From the NCBI GenBank assembly GCA_945873205.1, contig CAMCCC010000003.1, positions 1 to 64,000 on the forward strand: a stretch of 64,000 nucleotides of DNA. Direction: 5' to 3'. This stretch comes from an uncultured bacterium. Lineage in GTDB: Bacteria > Bacillota > Clostridia > Oscillospirales > Oscillospiraceae. A program made the translations under genes and the position numbers. Within the stretch, counting starts at the first letter, position 1; the number at the start of each line of letters is the position of its first letter. This document shows positions 32,198 through 63,417 of the stretch, piece by piece. The notes beneath the pieces are model-generated. The model was not told the DNA's origin. It made no database searches and was given only the letters and a program-made list of their open reading frames with translations.

Positions 32198-32461
32198 CTA
32201 TTCCATGTCCCTGATTTCAGACACCAGCACGATCACCTGGTTTTGGGCCACGGTGGCCACGCCTTCACCCACGGCGATCCGGCCCTGTTCCTCCCCGGCG
32301 GTGAAACGGATCACCCCGGCGGACACGGCACAGAGCATATCGCTGTGGCCCCGCAGGATTCCCAGGGAACCGAAGGCGGTGGGCAAATTCACATAGTCCA
32401 CATTCTTGCTGAAGCCCTCTCCATAGGCGGTGCTGACGCTGAGCTGGATATCACAGGCCAT
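32198..32461 (-). CDS. atpC: ATP synthase epsilon subunit, N-terminal domain only
   Basis: An 87-residue protein covering just the epsilon beta-sandwich (LPTAFGSLGILRGHSDMLCAV, GVATVAQNQVIVLV). The usual 130-140-residue subunit has a C-terminal pair of helices that inhibits ATP hydrolysis; here it is missing, and the terminator follows at once, so it is not a frameshift at the window edge. The start at ATG 32461 uses GAGGTGA 6 bases upstream; the in-frame GTG at 32470 overlaps that site. Last gene of the operon. Confidence 0.85.
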   Translation of the reverse strand: MACDIQLSVSTAYGEGFSKNVDYVNLPTAFGSLGILRGHSDMLCAVSAGVIRFTAGEEQGRIAVGEGVATVAQNQVIVLVSEIRDME

Positions 32462-32471
32462 TGCGCTCACC

Positions 32472-34716
<2,245 letters not shown>

Positions 34717-34750
34717 CCGCTGCACCTCCTTCTGGCGTTTTCAGCCCGTT

Positions 34751-36991
34751 TCATGAAAAGTTCTTCTTGAATTCCTCTATCAGCCGGCGCAGCTGCTGGA
34801 TCTGGTCCTTATCCAGCTTTGCCCCGCCCTCGATCACCTGGCACAGGTCCGATGCCTGCTCATAGGCGTAAGCGGTCAGGCCCCGCTCGAATTCCGGCAC
34901 CCTCTCGGTGTCCAGGTCATCCATATAGCCCTCGTTGGCGGCAAAGATAGCCACCACCTGCTCCGCCACGGTTTTGGGGTCGTAGCGTTTCTGCTTCAGA
35001 AGCTCGGTCAGCTTGCGGCCCCGGTTCAGGGCGTCTCTGGTGGCCTTATCCAGGTCAGAGCCGAACTGGGCAAAGCTCTCCAGCTCCCGGTGCTGGGCCA
35101 GGTCCATACGCAGCCGGGAAGCAAACTGCTTCATGGCCTTGGGCTGGGCCGCGCCGCCTACGCGGCTGACGGAAAGGCCCGCGTTGATGGCCGGGCGCAC
35201 ACCGGCGTTGAACAGGCCCTCCTCCAGGAAGATCTGTCCGTCGGTGATGGAAATCACGTTGGTAGGTATGTAGGCGGAAATGTCCCCCGCCTGGGTCTCC
35301 ACGATGGGCAGGGCAGTCATGCTGCCGCCGCCGTTTTCATCGTTGAGGCAAGCCGCCCGCTCCAGCAATCTGGAGTGCAGGTAGAACACGTCGCCGGGAT
35401 AGGCCTCCCGCCCGGGCGGGCGGTGCAGCAGCAAACTCAGCTCACGATAGGCCACTGCGTGGCGGGACAGGTCGTCATAAACGATCAGAACGTGCTTGCC
35501 CTGATACATCAGGTACTCGCCCATGGCGGCGCCGGTGTAGGGCGCGATGTACAGCATGGGCGCCGGGTCGGAGGCCTTGGCGCTGACCACGATGCTGTAG
35601 TCCATGGCGCCCAGTTCCCGCAGCTTGGCGACGATGCCCGCCACGGTGGACTCCTTCTGCCCTATGGCCACATAGATGCAGATCACGTCCTTGCCCTTCT
35701 GGTTGATAATGGTGTCAACGGCGATGGAGGTCTTGCCTGTCTTTCGGTCGCCGATGATCAGCTCACGCTGGCCCCGGCCGATAGGCACCAGGGCGTCGAT
35801 GGCCTTGATGCCGGTCTGCAGCGGCACCGTCACCGGCTTTCTGGCGATGATGCCGGGGGCCGGGCTCTCCACAGGTCTGGTGTGGGTGGTCAGCAGCGCG
35901 CCGCGGCCGTCCACCGGGCGGCCCAGGCCGTCTACCACGCGGCCGATCAGCTCCTCGCCCACCGGCACCTCCATCACCTTCCCGGTGCGGCGTACCTGGG
36001 CGCCCTCGTGCAGTTCCTCATAGCTGCCCAGCAGCACGGCGCTGACGGTATTCTTCTCAATGTCCATCACCATGCCCCGCAGGCCGCCGTCGAACTGCAG
36101 CATCTCGCCTGCCATTACATCGGACAGGCCGGCAATGCGGCAGATGCCATCCGCCAGACTGAGTACCACGCCGGTCTGGAAGCAGCCCGGCTCTTTGTCC
36201 GCCGCGGCCAGCTTCTCCTGGAAGTAGACCGCCAGGTCCTCGCCGGTGTCCTCCTGGCTCTCCAGCTCCTGACCCAGCCGGTCCAGCATATAGGAAAGGC
36301 TCCCGTCATACACCGTGTCGCCCAGCTGCAGGCGCAGTCCTCCGATCAGGCTTTCCTCTGTTCTTGTTTCAAAGTCCACGGAAGTGCCGGCCTTGCGCTC
36401 CACCAGGGCGCGCACCTGCCCGGCGATCTCCGGGTCAATCTCCTCCGCCCCGGTCAGGGTGGCCTTCAGGCCCTCGCCCCAGCGCAGGCGGGCCCTGTCG
36501 CTGTCGGTCAGCGTCAGCTTCTGCTCCAGGACTTCCAGGAAGCGTTCCGGCATGGCCCTGCGGGCCTGGGCGTAGTCCGCCCCCTTCAGCAGCTCCCCGG
36601 CCTCGGAGAGAATGTCCGCCGCCTCCTCGTCCCTGAGCTGCCCCAGTACCTGGCGCTTCATGCTCAGTGCGTCCTGCCGGGTCTGCTTCCGGCGGCTCTC
36701 CGCCAGCTCCTGCCGGGCCTGGGCGCTCTGGCTGAGACTCTGCGCCGAGCGTTCTCTGGCCTGGCTCACAATCTCCTGGCTTTGGGCCTGGCCCTCCGCC
36801 CGAATATCCTCAAGGGTCTCTGTAATATGCTGTGCGTTCTCCCCCGCCGCCTTTGCCGCGTCCAGGGCGTCACTGATCTGCTGGCGGTTGCCGTTGATCA
36901 TGTTGACAACCATCTTTTTACCGAACTTCACCAGCACAAAGGCCAGTATAGCAAAGTTGATCAGTGCGTAAAAAATATTCCATCCGCCCAA
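34751..36991 (-). CDS. ATP synthase b-delta-alpha fusion protein
   Basis: One unbroken 746-residue frame holds three subunits. Residues 5-25 are a membrane helix and 26-130 an Ala/Gln/Glu-rich helix, as in F0 b. Residues about 140-245 match the delta/OSCP C-terminal domain ([20 protein letters not shown]); its N-terminal six-helix domain is not seen. From about 250 it is a full alpha subunit with Walker A GDRKTGKT (414-421) and the Arg-finger region [12 protein letters not shown] (R610). Start is TTG at 36991 with GGAGGG 9 bases upstream; a stop codon precedes it directly. A separate b gene also exists. Mycobacterial b-delta fusions are known; fusion to alpha is unusual. Confidence 0.92.
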
Positions 36992-37031
36992 CTACAGTCA
37001 CCCTCCTTCCTGTATTTTTTGATTTTTCCGC

Positions 37032-37451
37032 TCATTGGCTGAGCCGGTCTGCCAGGGTTCTGGCCAGTTCGTGGCGCCGCTGCTCCAGGCTTCGGCTGCT
37101 GGCGGCACGCAGGCTCTCCGTGTCCTCTGCCGCCTGGGCCATGGCCGCCTGGGCTTCCTGCTCGATCTGCTTTTCGGCCGTCTGCCATTCCTCCCCGGCC
37201 TGGGCCTGGGTCCGGGCCGCAATATCCTGGGCCTGCTTCAGACCGGCAAGGCGCTGCTGCCGGGCTTCTTCCTGGGCCTGGGCCTGCTGCTCTTGGGCAA
37301 GGCTCTCCTGCCGGAAGCTCTCGTCCATGCGGCTCTGCCGCTCCTCGCGGAAGCGGATCACCGGCTTGAACAGCAGCTTGTTCAGCAAAAACATCAGCAC
37401 GAAAAAGCTCAGGACAGTCAGCAGCAATTCAGATATGTTGATGCTGAGCAT
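37032..37451 (-). CDS. atpF: ATP synthase b subunit (separate, b'-like)
   Basis: A 139-residue peripheral stalk subunit. N-terminal membrane helix (about 8-27, LLLTVLSFFVLMFLLNKLLF), then KPVIRFREER and a long Gln/Ala/Glu-rich coiled coil. Since the next gene brings a second b domain, this one probably pairs with it as a heterodimer, as b and b' do in cyanobacteria and chloroplasts (inference). It lies 40 bases before the fusion gene and 28 bases after atpE. Confidence 0.9.
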   Translation of the reverse strand: MLSINISELLLTVLSFFVLMFLLNKLLFKPVIRFREERQSRMDESFRQESLAQEQQAQAQEEARQQRLAGLKQAQDIAARTQAQAGEEWQTAEKQIEQEAQAAMAQAAEDTESLRAASSRSLEQRRHELARTLADRLSQ

Positions 37452-37479: not shown

Positions 37480-37707
37480 TCAGATCTTTGCCACCAGCAT
37501 AAAGGCGATCAGCAAGCCGTAAATGGTCAGTGCCTCCATCAGGCCCAGGGACAGGATCAGGGAAGAACGGATGTCCTTCGCCATCTCAGGCTGCCGGGCC
37601 ATAGCCTCCATTGCCTTGGAAGCGGCCAAGCCCTGGCCGATGCCGGGGCCCAGTGTGCTCAGCGCGATGGCCAGTGCGGCCGCGATTGCAATAATTCCAG
37701 AACTCAT
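37480..37707 (-). CDS. atpE: ATP synthase c subunit
   Basis: A 75-residue hairpin of two membrane helices joined by the RQPE loop. The ion-binding Glu is in [10 protein letters not shown]. Helix 1 has GPGIGQG, whose Gln is part of the Na+ signature known from Ilyobacter, but the Ser/Thr expected right after the Glu is Ala here. H+ use is thus likelier, without certainty. The start at ATG 37707 has GGAGG 8 bases upstream; an ATG at 37722 overlaps that RBS. Confidence 0.94.
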
Positions 37708-37862
37708 TTTATTTTCCTCCATTAACTATATGTTTTAATTATGTATGTAAATGCTGTTTTAAGACGCTGTAAAGCCGCTGCAAATGCAACTGATGTATGC
37801 ATATTTATTTGCATTTTTTCGTGCAAACCGAATGTTTATTCGTGGTTGTCCCCCACCCGGCT

Positions 37863-38528
37863 TCACTCTTCCTCCGCTGCTTCCGCTATGTAAATGCTCA
37901 GCAGCATGGTGAACACCAGGGCCTGGATCAGGCAGAACAGCAGGCTCAGCACGTTCATCACCAGTGGCACCAGGATGGGGAAGATGCCGTAGAGCTGCTC
38001 CGTGACCATTTCCTCGCCGAACAGGTTGCCGAACAGACGCAGCGCCAGAGAGAAGGGCCGCACGAAGGTTTCCACCAGGGTCAGCGGCAGCAGCACGCTG
38101 AGGAAGGACTTGAGATAGCCCTTGACGCCCCGCTCCTTGATGCCCACCGTATGGGTGGTGAAAAAGCCGATGATCGCCAGGCCCGCTGTGACGGACAGGC
38201 TGGCCGTGGGTACGGAAAAGCCCTTGATATGCCCCGCGCCCGGCAGCAGTCCCGAGTAGTTGCAAACGATGATAAAAATGAATAAGGTGGCCATGATCGG
38301 GAAATACTTTTTCCCCAGCTTCGGCCCCAGAATTCCTTCATAATAGCCCTGCAATTTACTCACGGCCATCTCCGCCAGGTTCTGCAGCGGCCCGGGCACA
38401 TCCTTCATGTTCCGCGTGGCCAGCCAGCTCAGCAGCGCCAGCAGCGCGATGATCACCCACATGGTCACCAGCACACCCGTGATCTCAACCGGGCCAATGG
38501 ATATCAATACATCTGATGAATGTTCCAT
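37863..38528 (-). CDS. atpB: ATP synthase a subunit
   Basis: A 221-residue membrane subunit that forms the ion half-channels against the c-ring. The essential Arg lies in RPFSLALRLFGNLFGEEM; the C-terminal helix LFCLIQALVFTMLLSIYIAEA is typical. First gene of the operon (a, c, b, b-delta-alpha, gamma, beta, epsilon). The start at 38528 is set by GGAGGTGA 5 bases upstream; an in-frame start at 38600 lacks an RBS. No atpI is seen upstream. Confidence 0.95.
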   Translation of the reverse strand: MEHSSDVLISIGPVEITGVLVTMWVIIALLALLSWLATRNMKDVPGPLQNLAEMAVSKLQGYYEGILGPKLGKKYFPIMATLFIFIIVCNYSGLLPGAGHIKGFSVPTASLSVTAGLAIIGFFTTHTVGIKERGVKGYLKSFLSVLLPLTLVETFVRPFSLALRLFGNLFGEEMVTEQLYGIFPILVPLVMNVLSLLFCLIQALVFTMLLSIYIAEAAEEE

Positions 38529-38664
38529 TTTTTCACCTCCGTCGGCTTCCCGCCTCACGTTTTTCTTGTTTTGCGGCATGTTTTCTGCATTTTCGGGCAC
38601 TTTTCGCTTGTTTTTCCCTCAAGCCCCGACTGGCGTACCGGCCGGGCCACACTGCCGCGCCATT

Positions 38665-40664: not shown

Positions 40665-42473
40665 TCAGTCCAGAATGATCTCGCAATCCAGCAACGCGTT
40701 CTGGAGGGTGTCAATCTGCTGCTCGGTAAGGGGGTTGCCGCCCAGATAAAGGGTTTTCAGGGTCTTGAGGTTCATAAGCGCCAGCTCGGAGCTGATGCTG
40801 TTGTTGCTCAGATCCAGCACCTCGATCCCGGTGAGGGAGGCCAGCGGGGTGATATCCTCAATCAGATTGCCGGAGAGGTTCAGCTCCCGGAGGGTATGGC
40901 GGCTGTCGGTCAGCTGGAGAATATAGAGGTTGCTGATGCTGTTGCGGGAAAGATTCAGCTTTTCCAGGGAAGGGAGCTTCGCCAGGCCGGCAATATCCGA
41001 AATGCCGCGGCCGGAGAGGTCCAGCTCTGTGGCAGTGCTGAGCACCTGTTGGCCGTCAATATCGATACTGTAGGCCAGTTGGGAGCGGCTGATGTTGCAG
41101 GTAGCCAGCTTTTGCTGGAGGGCGTCCACCGCCTCGCCGGTAAGGGCCTCGTTATCCTCCAGGTTCAGACTGGTCAGCAGGGTAAGATTTTTCAGGTAGT
41201 CCATGTCCTCATCGGTAAGGCCGGTGCCGCTGAGGCCCAGCACCTCCAAGCTTTTCACCTTCCGCAGGCCGGAAAAGTCCCGGATGGGATTGTTGTCCAG
41301 ATACAGCTCCTTCAGGCCGTTCATCATGCTGAGAGGGGCGGTGCTGTTGATGGCGTTGCCGGAAGCGTCCACATAGGTGAGGCGTGCAATGCCCATGAGG
41401 GGGCGCAGGTCCGTGACCTGGTTGCCGGAAATGTCCAGCCATTCCAGCAGGGGCAGGTTCATCAGCGTGCTGAGGTCGCTGATTTGGTTATCGGACAGGT
41501 TCAGCTTCACCAGCTGCTGGCAGGCGGAGAGGGCGGAAATATCCCGCAGGCCCATGCCGCTGAGGTCCAGCTCGGTCACGTCGGCCTTGAAGGTAACGCC
41601 GCCAAAGCTGATATCCTGATCCTTATCCTCGGAAGCGTCGGTATGGATGGCGCAGTTGGGCAGGGACTTGGAAAGGGCCTCCAGCTGGGCGGGGCTGATG
41701 TCGACGCCTTTCAGGCTGAGGCTGGTCAGGTTGGGCAGGCAGCACAGGGCGCTGAGATCCGTAACCGGGTTGTTGTCCAGATACAGGGTGCGCAGGCCGG
41801 TCAGGGAAGCCAGGGGCATCAGGTCCTGAATGTTGTTGTCGCTGAGATTCAAGGTCACCAGGCCGCCCATATTGGACAGGGCGGTGATATTGCTGATGCT
41901 GTTGCCGGCCAGGGAAAGACTGTCCAGCGAATAGAGCTGGCTGATCTCGGTAAAGACGGTATCGGTCAGGCCCATTTTATCCAGCACCAGGCTGGTAGTG
42001 GTAGCGGGATATTTTTTGCCGGCAATGGTGACGGTCTCGGCCTCGGCCAGAAGCCGGCGGCGGCTGTCAATGGCGGAGATACGGGTGGAGATCTCCGGGT
42101 CGGAGGTGTTCATGCTGCGGAGAATTTCCAGGGCCTTGGTGTAGTTGCCCTGGTTCTCATAGCAATCCACCATCAGCAGCAGGCAGTCCTCCGAGCGGTC
42201 GATGGACGCCGCCTTCCGCAAAGCGGCAAGGGCGCTGTCATAATCGCAGGTCTCATAGCTGCGGCGGGCCTGGGTCAGGTAATCGTTATAGCTTTTCATT
42301 TCCGACACGCTGCGCAGCACCACAGCCACCGCAATAATGAGCAATGCCGTGGCCGCCGTGGCCAGCATATAGAGTACCCTCCTGCGGCGGCGGCGCTGTT
42401 CCGCCTCGCTCAGCGGCTCCGCCTTCTGCTGCTGTGCCGCCCGGGGACGGCGCAGGTCTGATCTGGTTTTCAT
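40665..42473 (-). CDS. Single-pass membrane protein with TPR-like and leucine-rich repeats
   Basis: A 602-residue protein. An Arg-rich cytoplasmic N-terminus is followed by one membrane helix (33-53), a TPR-like helical part (58-130, YETCDYDSALAALRKAASI) and then about 18 LRRs of the internalin/SDS22 type (repeats such as LDLSGMGLRDISALSACQQL). The LRR array should lie outside the cell and mediate protein contacts. No sortase motif or catalytic domain. It overlaps the preceding gene by 4 bases (ATGA), so the two are coupled. Function unknown. Confidence 0.85.
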   Translation of the reverse strand: MKTRSDLRRPRAAQQQKAEPLSEAEQRRRRRRVLYMLATAATALLIIAVAVVLRSVSEMKSYNDYLTQARRSYETCDYDSALAALRKAASIDRSEDCLLLMVDCYENQGNYTKALEILRSMNTSDPEISTRISAIDSRRRLLAEAETVTIAGKKYPATTTSLVLDKMGLTDTVFTEISQLYSLDSLSLAGNSISNITALSNMGGLVTLNLSDNNIQDLMPLASLTGLRTLYLDNNPVTDLSALCCLPNLTSLSLKGVDISPAQLEALSKSLPNCAIHTDASEDKDQDISFGGVTFKADVTELDLSGMGLRDISALSACQQLVKLNLSDNQISDLSTLMNLPLLEWLDISGNQVTDLRPLMGIARLTYVDASGNAINSTAPLSMMNGLKELYLDNNPIRDFSGLRKVKSLEVLGLSGTGLTDEDMDYLKNLTLLTSLNLEDNEALTGEAVDALQQKLATCNISRSQLAYSIDIDGQQVLSTATELDLSGRGISDIAGLAKLPSLEKLNLSRNSISNLYILQLTDSRHTLRELNLSGNLIEDITPLASLTGIEVLDLSNNSISSELALMNLKTLKTLYLGGNPLTEQQIDTLQNALLDCEIILD

Positions 42474-63002: not shown

Positions 63003-63077
63003 TGGTGACCCGTACGGGACTCGAACCCATGTTACCGCCGTGAAAGGGCGGTGTCTTAACCACTTGACCAACGGGCC
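63003..63077 (-). tRNA. tRNA-Glu (anticodon TTC)
   Basis: Full cloverleaf on the minus strand. Acceptor GGCCCGT/ACGGGTC, anticodon stem-loop CCGCC-CTTTCAC-GGCGG, T-arm with GGTTCGAGTCC. The 3' CCA is encoded. Discriminator A. Confidence 0.96.
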
Positions 63078-63078
63078 A

Positions 63079-63109
63079 TAAAAAGGCGCAGTCAAAAGGC
63101 TGCGCCTTG
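63079..63109 (-). terminator. Hairpin between tRNA-Met and tRNA-Glu
   Basis: AAGGCGCAG / CTGCGCCTT with 8-nt loop and TTTTT on the minus strand. It looks like an intrinsic terminator inside a two-tRNA unit, or a processing signal. Confidence 0.6.
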
Positions 63110-63112
63110 AAT

Positions 63113-63189
63113 TGGTAGCGGCACCTGGATTCGAACCGGGGACACTGCGGGTATGAACCGCATGCTCTAGCCAACTGAGCTATGCCGCC
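63113..63189 (-). tRNA. tRNA-Met (anticodon CAT, elongator type)
   Basis: Cloverleaf on the minus strand: acceptor GGCGGCA/TGCCGCT, anticodon arm TGCGG-TTCATAC-CCGCA, encoded CCA. It lacks the C1 mismatch and GGG/CCC anticodon stem of initiators, so it is elongator Met; the tRNA-Ile2 (lysidine) type is a lesser possibility. Confidence 0.92.
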
Positions 63190-63216
63190 ATGTCTGTTCC
63201 CTGAACAGCAATAGGA

Positions 63217-63245
63217 ATTTTATCAGAAGCCGCCCCACTTGTCAA
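63217..63245 (-). promoter_or_regulatory. Promoter of the tRNA-Met/tRNA-Glu unit
   Basis: On the minus strand, -35 TTGACA (63245-63240), a 17-nt spacer and -10 TAAAAT (63222-63217). Confidence 0.85.
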
Positions 63246-63300
63246 CTGTTTTTTCAAAAAGTCGAGAAAAAAATATTTTCGAAAAAATTGCAAGTTCCTC

Positions 63301-63329
63301 TTGCAAAGTTCGGCATCCTGTGTTATCCT
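63301..63329 (+). promoter_or_regulatory. Promoter of tRNA-Val
   Basis: -35 TTGCAA (63301-63306), a 17-nt spacer and -10 TATCCT (63324-63329), 12 bases before the tRNA. Confidence 0.7.
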
Positions 63330-63340
63330 ATAAAGGCTTT

Positions 63341-63417
63341 GGAGGGTTAGCTCAGCTGGTTAGAGCGTCCGCCTCACACGCGGAAGGTCGACGGTTCGAG
63401 TCCGCCACTCTCCACCA
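63341..63417 (+). tRNA. tRNA-Val (anticodon CAC)
   Basis: Full cloverleaf: acceptor GGAGGGT/ACTCTCC, anticodon arm TCCGC-CTCACAC-GCGGA, T-loop GGTTCGAGTCC, encoded CCA. Confidence 0.96.

Follow-up and report, generated by a model that had tools for sequence, protein, structure and literature searches.

How is the peripheral stalk of an ATP synthase arranged when a stalk helix, the delta C-terminal domain and the alpha subunit are made as a single polypeptide? The question is raised by a gene of an uncultured Oscillospiraceae bacterium (assembly GCA_945873205.1, contig CAMCCC010000003.1), located in the 64,000-nucleotide stretch analysed here, hereafter the window. F-type ATP synthases have been described with a single outer stalk (PMC5376962). 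The original prediction pointed to the stoichiometry problem that such a fusion creates, and this problem proved to be real: one chain does hold a b helix, the C-terminal domain of delta and an alpha subunit.

The 746-residue open frame at 34751-36991 was confirmed and could be assigned to the minus strand, which had not been specified before: its TTG start lies at 36991, and its stop codon ends at 34751. The plus strand in the same frame contained no ATP synthase sequence. At the place of the TTG codon, the relatives shown mostly had ATG, and one of them had GTG. The order of the parts also held as predicted, and all Pfam domains of the fusion (ATP-synt_B, OSCP and the three alpha domains, at residues 273-741) exceeded their gathering scores. 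The chain scored 765.5 bits against the NCBIfam equivalog model of F0F1 AtpA, TIGR00962 (cut-off 484.45). In the AlphaFold2 model (mean pLDDT 80.4, pTM 0.73), the b-type part, designated b', formed a single helix from residue 4 to 136, followed by the delta domain (176-245) and then alpha. Thus, the fusion of b', the delta C-terminal domain and alpha was confirmed as a real observation. The features of the locus are as follows.

34751..36991, minus strand: b'-deltaCTD-alpha fusion gene, 746 aa, TTG start (Pfam, NCBIfam)
37002..37007, minus strand: ribosome-binding site AGGAGG of the fusion gene, 10 nt before the TTG
36542..36991, minus strand: b' part, residues 1-150, membrane helix and stalk (Pfam ATP-synt_B at 6-131; own profile at 1-150; structural model)
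36257..36475, minus strand: delta C-terminal domain, residues 173-245 (Pfam OSCP; own profile at 173-245; spacing)
36176..36256, minus strand: delta-alpha junction, residues 246-272, with a helix at 253-262 where the alpha N-terminal helix sits and without a conserved internal start
34757..36175, minus strand: alpha part, residues 273-745 (PF02874, PF00006, PF00306; TIGR00962)
37863..38600, minus strand: a subunit (PF00119)
37480..37722, minus strand: c subunit, 80 aa (PF00137)
37032..37451, minus strand: separate b subunit, 139 aa, upstream of the fusion (PF00430)
33859..34725, minus strand: gamma subunit (PF00231, TIGR01146)
32472..33869, minus strand: beta subunit (TIGR01039)
32198..32470, minus strand: epsilon subunit, 90 aa, beta-sandwich domain only, without the C-terminal helical domain (PF02823 only)

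The open reading frames and Pfam matches bore out the predicted gene order a, c, b, fusion, gamma, beta, epsilon. The a, b, c, gamma, beta and epsilon subunits, all above gathering scores in one operon, identify the enzyme as F-type (F1Fo). This assignment rests on subunits other than delta, since a complete delta with both its domains is missing: the OSCP match (residues 175-243) covered only positions 103-172 of the 172-position profile, which correspond to the C-terminal domain. The operon contains a single a gene. In the genome, which is 91% complete in 48 contigs, the only OSCP match lay inside the fusion, and the two b matches above cut-off were the fusion and the separate b. One F-type alpha was present, and the other nucleotide-binding matches above cut-off were beta and pieces of V-type A and B; a V-type ATPase is thus also encoded. 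Among the matches above cut-off in this assembly there was no second F-type alpha or delta; two weak matches lay below the cut-off. Two further observations concern the surroundings of the operon. A 602-aa frame at 40665-42473 of the window, on the minus strand, appears by eye to carry a membrane helix in its N-terminal region and leucine-rich-repeat-like sequence. Three tRNA genes lie at 63006-63414, two on the minus strand and one on the plus strand; nothing else in the window reached an Rfam gathering score.

The original prediction described a delta-like C-terminal part, which was confirmed; the present analysis refines it in that the delta N-terminal domain is absent, with only 22 residues separating b' from the delta C-terminal domain. 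In all 93 triple fusions examined this distance was 7-23 residues (median 22), which leaves no place for the N-terminal domain in any of them. In agreement with this, the full-delta profile matched 30 of the 93, and the lowest profile position reached was 102. The absence is relevant to stalk number: according to Ueno et al. (2025; PMC12229609), the delta N-terminal domain occupies the pseudo-threefold axis of F1, restricting the enzyme to a single stalk. With this domain lost, three stalk copies would become possible.

An enzyme built on this principle has been engineered. In the FoF1 of Bacillus PS3, the delta N-terminal domain was deleted and the remainder was fused to alpha; the product carried as many as three stalks and a subunits, and H+/ATP rose from 3.0 to 5.8 (PMC12229609). 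The natural fusion has the same two marks, namely loss of the delta N-terminal domain and attachment of the C-terminal domain to the alpha N-terminus through a short link, and the epsilon C-terminal domain is absent in both enzymes. A Foldseek search of the AlphaFold2 model against 350,542 PDB chains returned the engineered chain 9jc1_I as the first match (E 1.3e-60, 570 columns). Residues 198-745 of the fusion aligned collinearly, in one stretch, with residues 27-576 of 9jc1_I, whose linker had three extra residues in the profile alignment; by sequence alone, plain alpha chains scored slightly higher than 9jc1_I. The 50 matches listed by VIA-align were alpha chains, and 9jc1 was not among them. 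The engineered enzyme differs from the present one in having separate b homodimers, whereas the natural chain carries one b-type helix covalently, with a separate b beside it.

Other relatives share only parts of this plan. The strongest PDB match of the b'-delta profile was chain d of 7jg5, the mycobacterial b-delta, which also unites a b helix and a delta C-terminal domain. However, the two parts are separated by about 209 residues in 7jg5_d and by 22 here; the mycobacterial protein keeps a long delta N-terminal stretch that the fusion does not have, and its alpha is separate. In N-ATPases, b and delta are fused or delta is absent, and the genes are arranged as beta-epsilon-X-X-a-c-(b delta)-alpha-gamma (PMC11738941). 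The N-ATPase b (TIGR03321) resembles the fusion in that its b helix leads into a short delta-like end, the delta N-terminal domain being absent, and the TIGR03321 model matched residues 9-242 nearly end to end, although at 47.5 bits, far under the cut-off of 224.7. Membership in this group was ruled out by the alpha subfamily and the gene order: the fusion scored 637.5 bits against the alternate F1F0 alpha model TIGR03324 (cut-off 750.5), which is lower than its TIGR00962 score, and in contrast to N-ATPases alpha and beta are canonical F-type, the genes follow another order, and alpha is fused. V- and A-type ATPases have two or three peripheral stalks (PMC5376962). They are alike only in the predicted number of stalks, the stalk subunits being different and here all F-type.

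The fusion is conserved among relatives (below, G, L and C numbers are our handles for genomes, loci and contigs). Delta was read through into alpha in 27 of 27 genes from 26 genomes of the same genus; these genes cover the junction and come from a set of 36 genomes, of which nine without an F-type alpha entry and one with a cut gene (G021) were not counted. From 390 matches selected through the b'-delta part, the best 80 named loci were retained, and in all 80 of them a single frame spanned delta and alpha. Seventy of them ran in one frame from b' to the end of a complete alpha, six were cut in alpha by the contig end, and L094 was cut in b' by the contig start. Thus, neither a stop codon nor separate genes, which according to the original prediction would speak against a genuine fusion, occurred between delta and alpha in any of these 27 genes or 80 loci. 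Interrupted copies do exist, inside alpha in G002 (L123, in which the contig start additionally truncates b') and G026 (L124) and inside b' in L098, but never at the junction. A protein search with residues 1-265 gave 417 matches, and the 120 listed were all 745-746 aa long with the same five Pfam domains. The named relatives (Oscillospiraceae, Ruminococcaceae, Clostridiales, Clostridia, Eubacteriales and Candidatus Limivicinus faecipullorum) are all metagenome-assembled or uncultured, many with gut or rumen sample names. This origin would fit an assembly artefact, and the three interrupted copies would fit a decaying gene; against junctions open in every case counted and the uniform length and domain content of the listed proteins, either explanation is extremely improbable.

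Sampling of the order showed the triple fusion in 18 of 394 genomes, including that of the window, in 10 genera and 5 families. In the samples of the phylum (398 genomes) and class (391 genomes), which include some genomes of the order, the only triple fusion listed was the window's own. The operon around 98 triple-fusion loci was constant wherever the flank was long enough: upstream, a was found in 78 of 78, c in 77 of 78 and b in 78 of 78 (72 by script and six by hand), and downstream, gamma and beta in 66 of 66 each and epsilon in 53 of 56. The epsilon of these loci is mostly short as well, since 68 of 71 matches, duplicates included, ended at most 13 residues from the end of the window's epsilon, and three were about 50 residues longer. 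Two genomes contained an additional gene: G006 has two triple-fusion genes, on contigs C94 and C81, and in G127 the triple fusion is accompanied by a gene for a separate alpha (contigs C6 and C10).

Three explanations would keep the number of working stalks below three. Internal initiation near the delta-alpha junction could supply free alpha, so that one fused chain and two free alpha subunits would retain a single stalk, a way out considered in the original prediction. In that case the junction should carry a start. Residue 234 of the window's fusion is indeed encoded by an in-frame ATG, which follows a GGAG at a distance of 10 nt. This feature is common to L010, L058, L062 and L082 among the sequences listed, and the 513-aa product would fit alpha. 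However, Met 234 is replaced by Leu, Ala or Ile in many relatives. We counted in-frame ATG, GTG or TTG codons with Shine-Dalgarno bases in 88 related sequences, with windows in the same genes as controls and with gene starts and unfused alpha starts as positive controls. Starts with at least five Shine-Dalgarno bases were found at 64 of 88 gene starts and 31 of 41 unfused alpha starts, but at only 8 of 88 junctions, compared with 18.9% of 1140 control windows. With at least six bases the values were 1 of 88 and 7.3%, and no start codon whatever was present at 20 of 88 junctions versus 11.5% of controls. At the lax threshold of four bases, the junction (44 of 88) was not below the background of 43%, so this level does not discriminate. 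The rarity of strong signals at the junction argues against internal initiation, which we regard as very unlikely.

Alternatively, as the original prediction also allowed, a protease might cleave the completed fusion, either within b' or between its delta and alpha parts, leaving one or two stalks. Proteolysis would solve the stoichiometry without altering F1. Yet the parts are kept in one frame across five families, and a product destined for cutting would have no evident advantage over separate genes; such processing is rather unlikely. It is also conceivable that, with all three alpha subunits fused, a single b'-b pair cooperates with an a subunit; the remaining two stalks would be passive tethers, and H+/ATP would stay ordinary. 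The operon offers one a gene, and sequence does not fix the number of a subunits, which leaves room for such tethers, whereas the stalks seen in the engineered enzyme always retained an a subunit (PMC12229609). On balance, we consider passive tethers unlikely.

Our analysis favors the option of three stalk copies, which the original prediction listed among several, since none of the 93 triple fusions examined has a delta N-terminal domain. Judging from the sequences, the ATP synthase probably has three covalent stalks, one per alpha, instead of one. Several observations support this reading. The chain combines b', delta C-terminal and alpha domains but has no delta N-terminal domain, the genome shows no other F-type alpha or delta match, the fusions group in one clade, and no signal for an internal start is conserved. 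Three identical chains would each begin in the membrane, run up the stalk as b', cap it with the delta C-terminal domain and pass into alpha at the F1 top. Each b' would probably pair with one copy of the separate b. By analogy with the engineered enzyme, each stalk may hold its own a subunit, giving up to three a. We put forward only tentatively the full arrangement of three covalent stalks, each composed of b' and a separate b and each with its own a subunit, in a natural F-type clade. The new peripheral-stalk architecture that the original prediction saw in the fusion is supported as an implication.

Additional a subunits would raise the number of protons per ATP and would allow ATP synthesis at low proton-motive force. 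A high H+/ATP ratio would fit an anaerobe whose proton-motive force is weak. Sodium coupling was considered and rejected: the c subunit of the window reads MEALTIY, a pattern that would favor protons. Among 113 c matches, duplicates included, S or T followed the carboxylate in at least four within the 40 commonest patterns. The same genome also encodes four membrane proteins of the Rnf/Nqr family, whose genes form two groups separated by about 12 kb (G000, contig C9, 50842-52091 and 64328-65508); these proteins are a possible source of the ion gradient.

The triple fusions appear to have a common origin. On a tree of 93 alpha domains, built quickly and with SH-aLRT support only, 44 triple fusions and L011 formed one clade with a support of 99; as its contig begins within b', L011 is labelled on the tree as a delta-alpha fusion (dA). 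Delta-alpha fusions lacking b were placed elsewhere on the tree, which indicates that delta was joined to alpha more than once. Delta-alpha joining is frequent: among 147 genomes of the order with a completeness of 90% or more, an alpha match was obtained in 76. In seven of these the match took in b' from its first residues and read through, and in 16 it began at residues 161-207 and continued into alpha without a stop. In G441, a genome of another family of the class, a separate b frame of 170 residues ends in a stop and is followed by a delta C-terminal domain fused to alpha. In many genomes across the order and class, delta and alpha lie in one frame with a single stop codon between them, and in others this stop has been lost. 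From these sequences, fusion through loss of a stop codon looks easy and repeated.

Two further fusions of delta and alpha were noted. L244:2523-4565 (G134) encodes 681 aa with two tandem delta C-terminal domains before alpha, each matched by Pfam OSCP; if this chain were used for all three alpha subunits, F1 would hold six delta domains. In L245:4128-6173 (G367), a complete delta, including the N-terminal domain, is fused to alpha in a 682-aa frame (OSCP 3-171 of 172). The stoichiometry of L245 is a puzzle, as the retained N-terminal domain should permit one copy. Thus, fusion of delta to alpha alone is no proof of several stalks.

The original prediction called the joining of alpha unusual. 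This holds for the triple polypeptide but not for the delta-alpha joining itself, which has both engineered and natural cases (PMC12229609), with many more found here. Known to date are b-delta fusions in mycobacteria and N-ATPases and delta-alpha fusions, engineered or natural, the latter noted in Acidaminococcus fermentans and in UniProt entries G4Q3K6 and A0A1I2C5T3 (PMC12229609). The delta-deltaN-alpha fusions that we examined, such as L241, L242 and L243, resemble the window's fusion in having the delta C-terminal domain joined to alpha and the N-terminal domain missing, but differ in lacking the b helix. A b'-delta-alpha fusion or its clade was not found described in the literature searched, which comprised few subscription papers and no preprints. 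The consulted parts of PMC12229609 do not mention a b helix attached covalently to the chain, and the consulted passages on ProAD and COGcollator mention only b-delta or a longer b.

If the arrangement with three a subunits is true, the clade would be a natural counterpart of the 2025 engineered enzyme. The engineered enzyme averaged about two stalks, part of its stalks having come off, and its authors call for a multi-stalk enzyme with stably bound stalks (PMC12229609). Because b' is covalent, the b' helices of the clade could not detach from F1 in this way. The clade is a ready candidate for such an enzyme, one stalk helix being part of alpha. Under the proposed rule that protons per turn equal c subunits multiplied by a subunits, protons per ATP could rise up to the number of c subunits in the ring; the highest structural H+/ATP estimate cited for a natural FoF1 is 5.0, and 5.7 has been predicted for an N-type ring (PMC12229609). 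These organisms would then make ATP at proton-motive forces at which ordinary ATP synthases run backwards. The existence of natural multi-stalk FoF1 has thereby become a testable question. If the fusions work as their anatomy predicts, the numbers of stalks and a subunits would be evolvable, and H+/ATP could be changed without a change of the ring.
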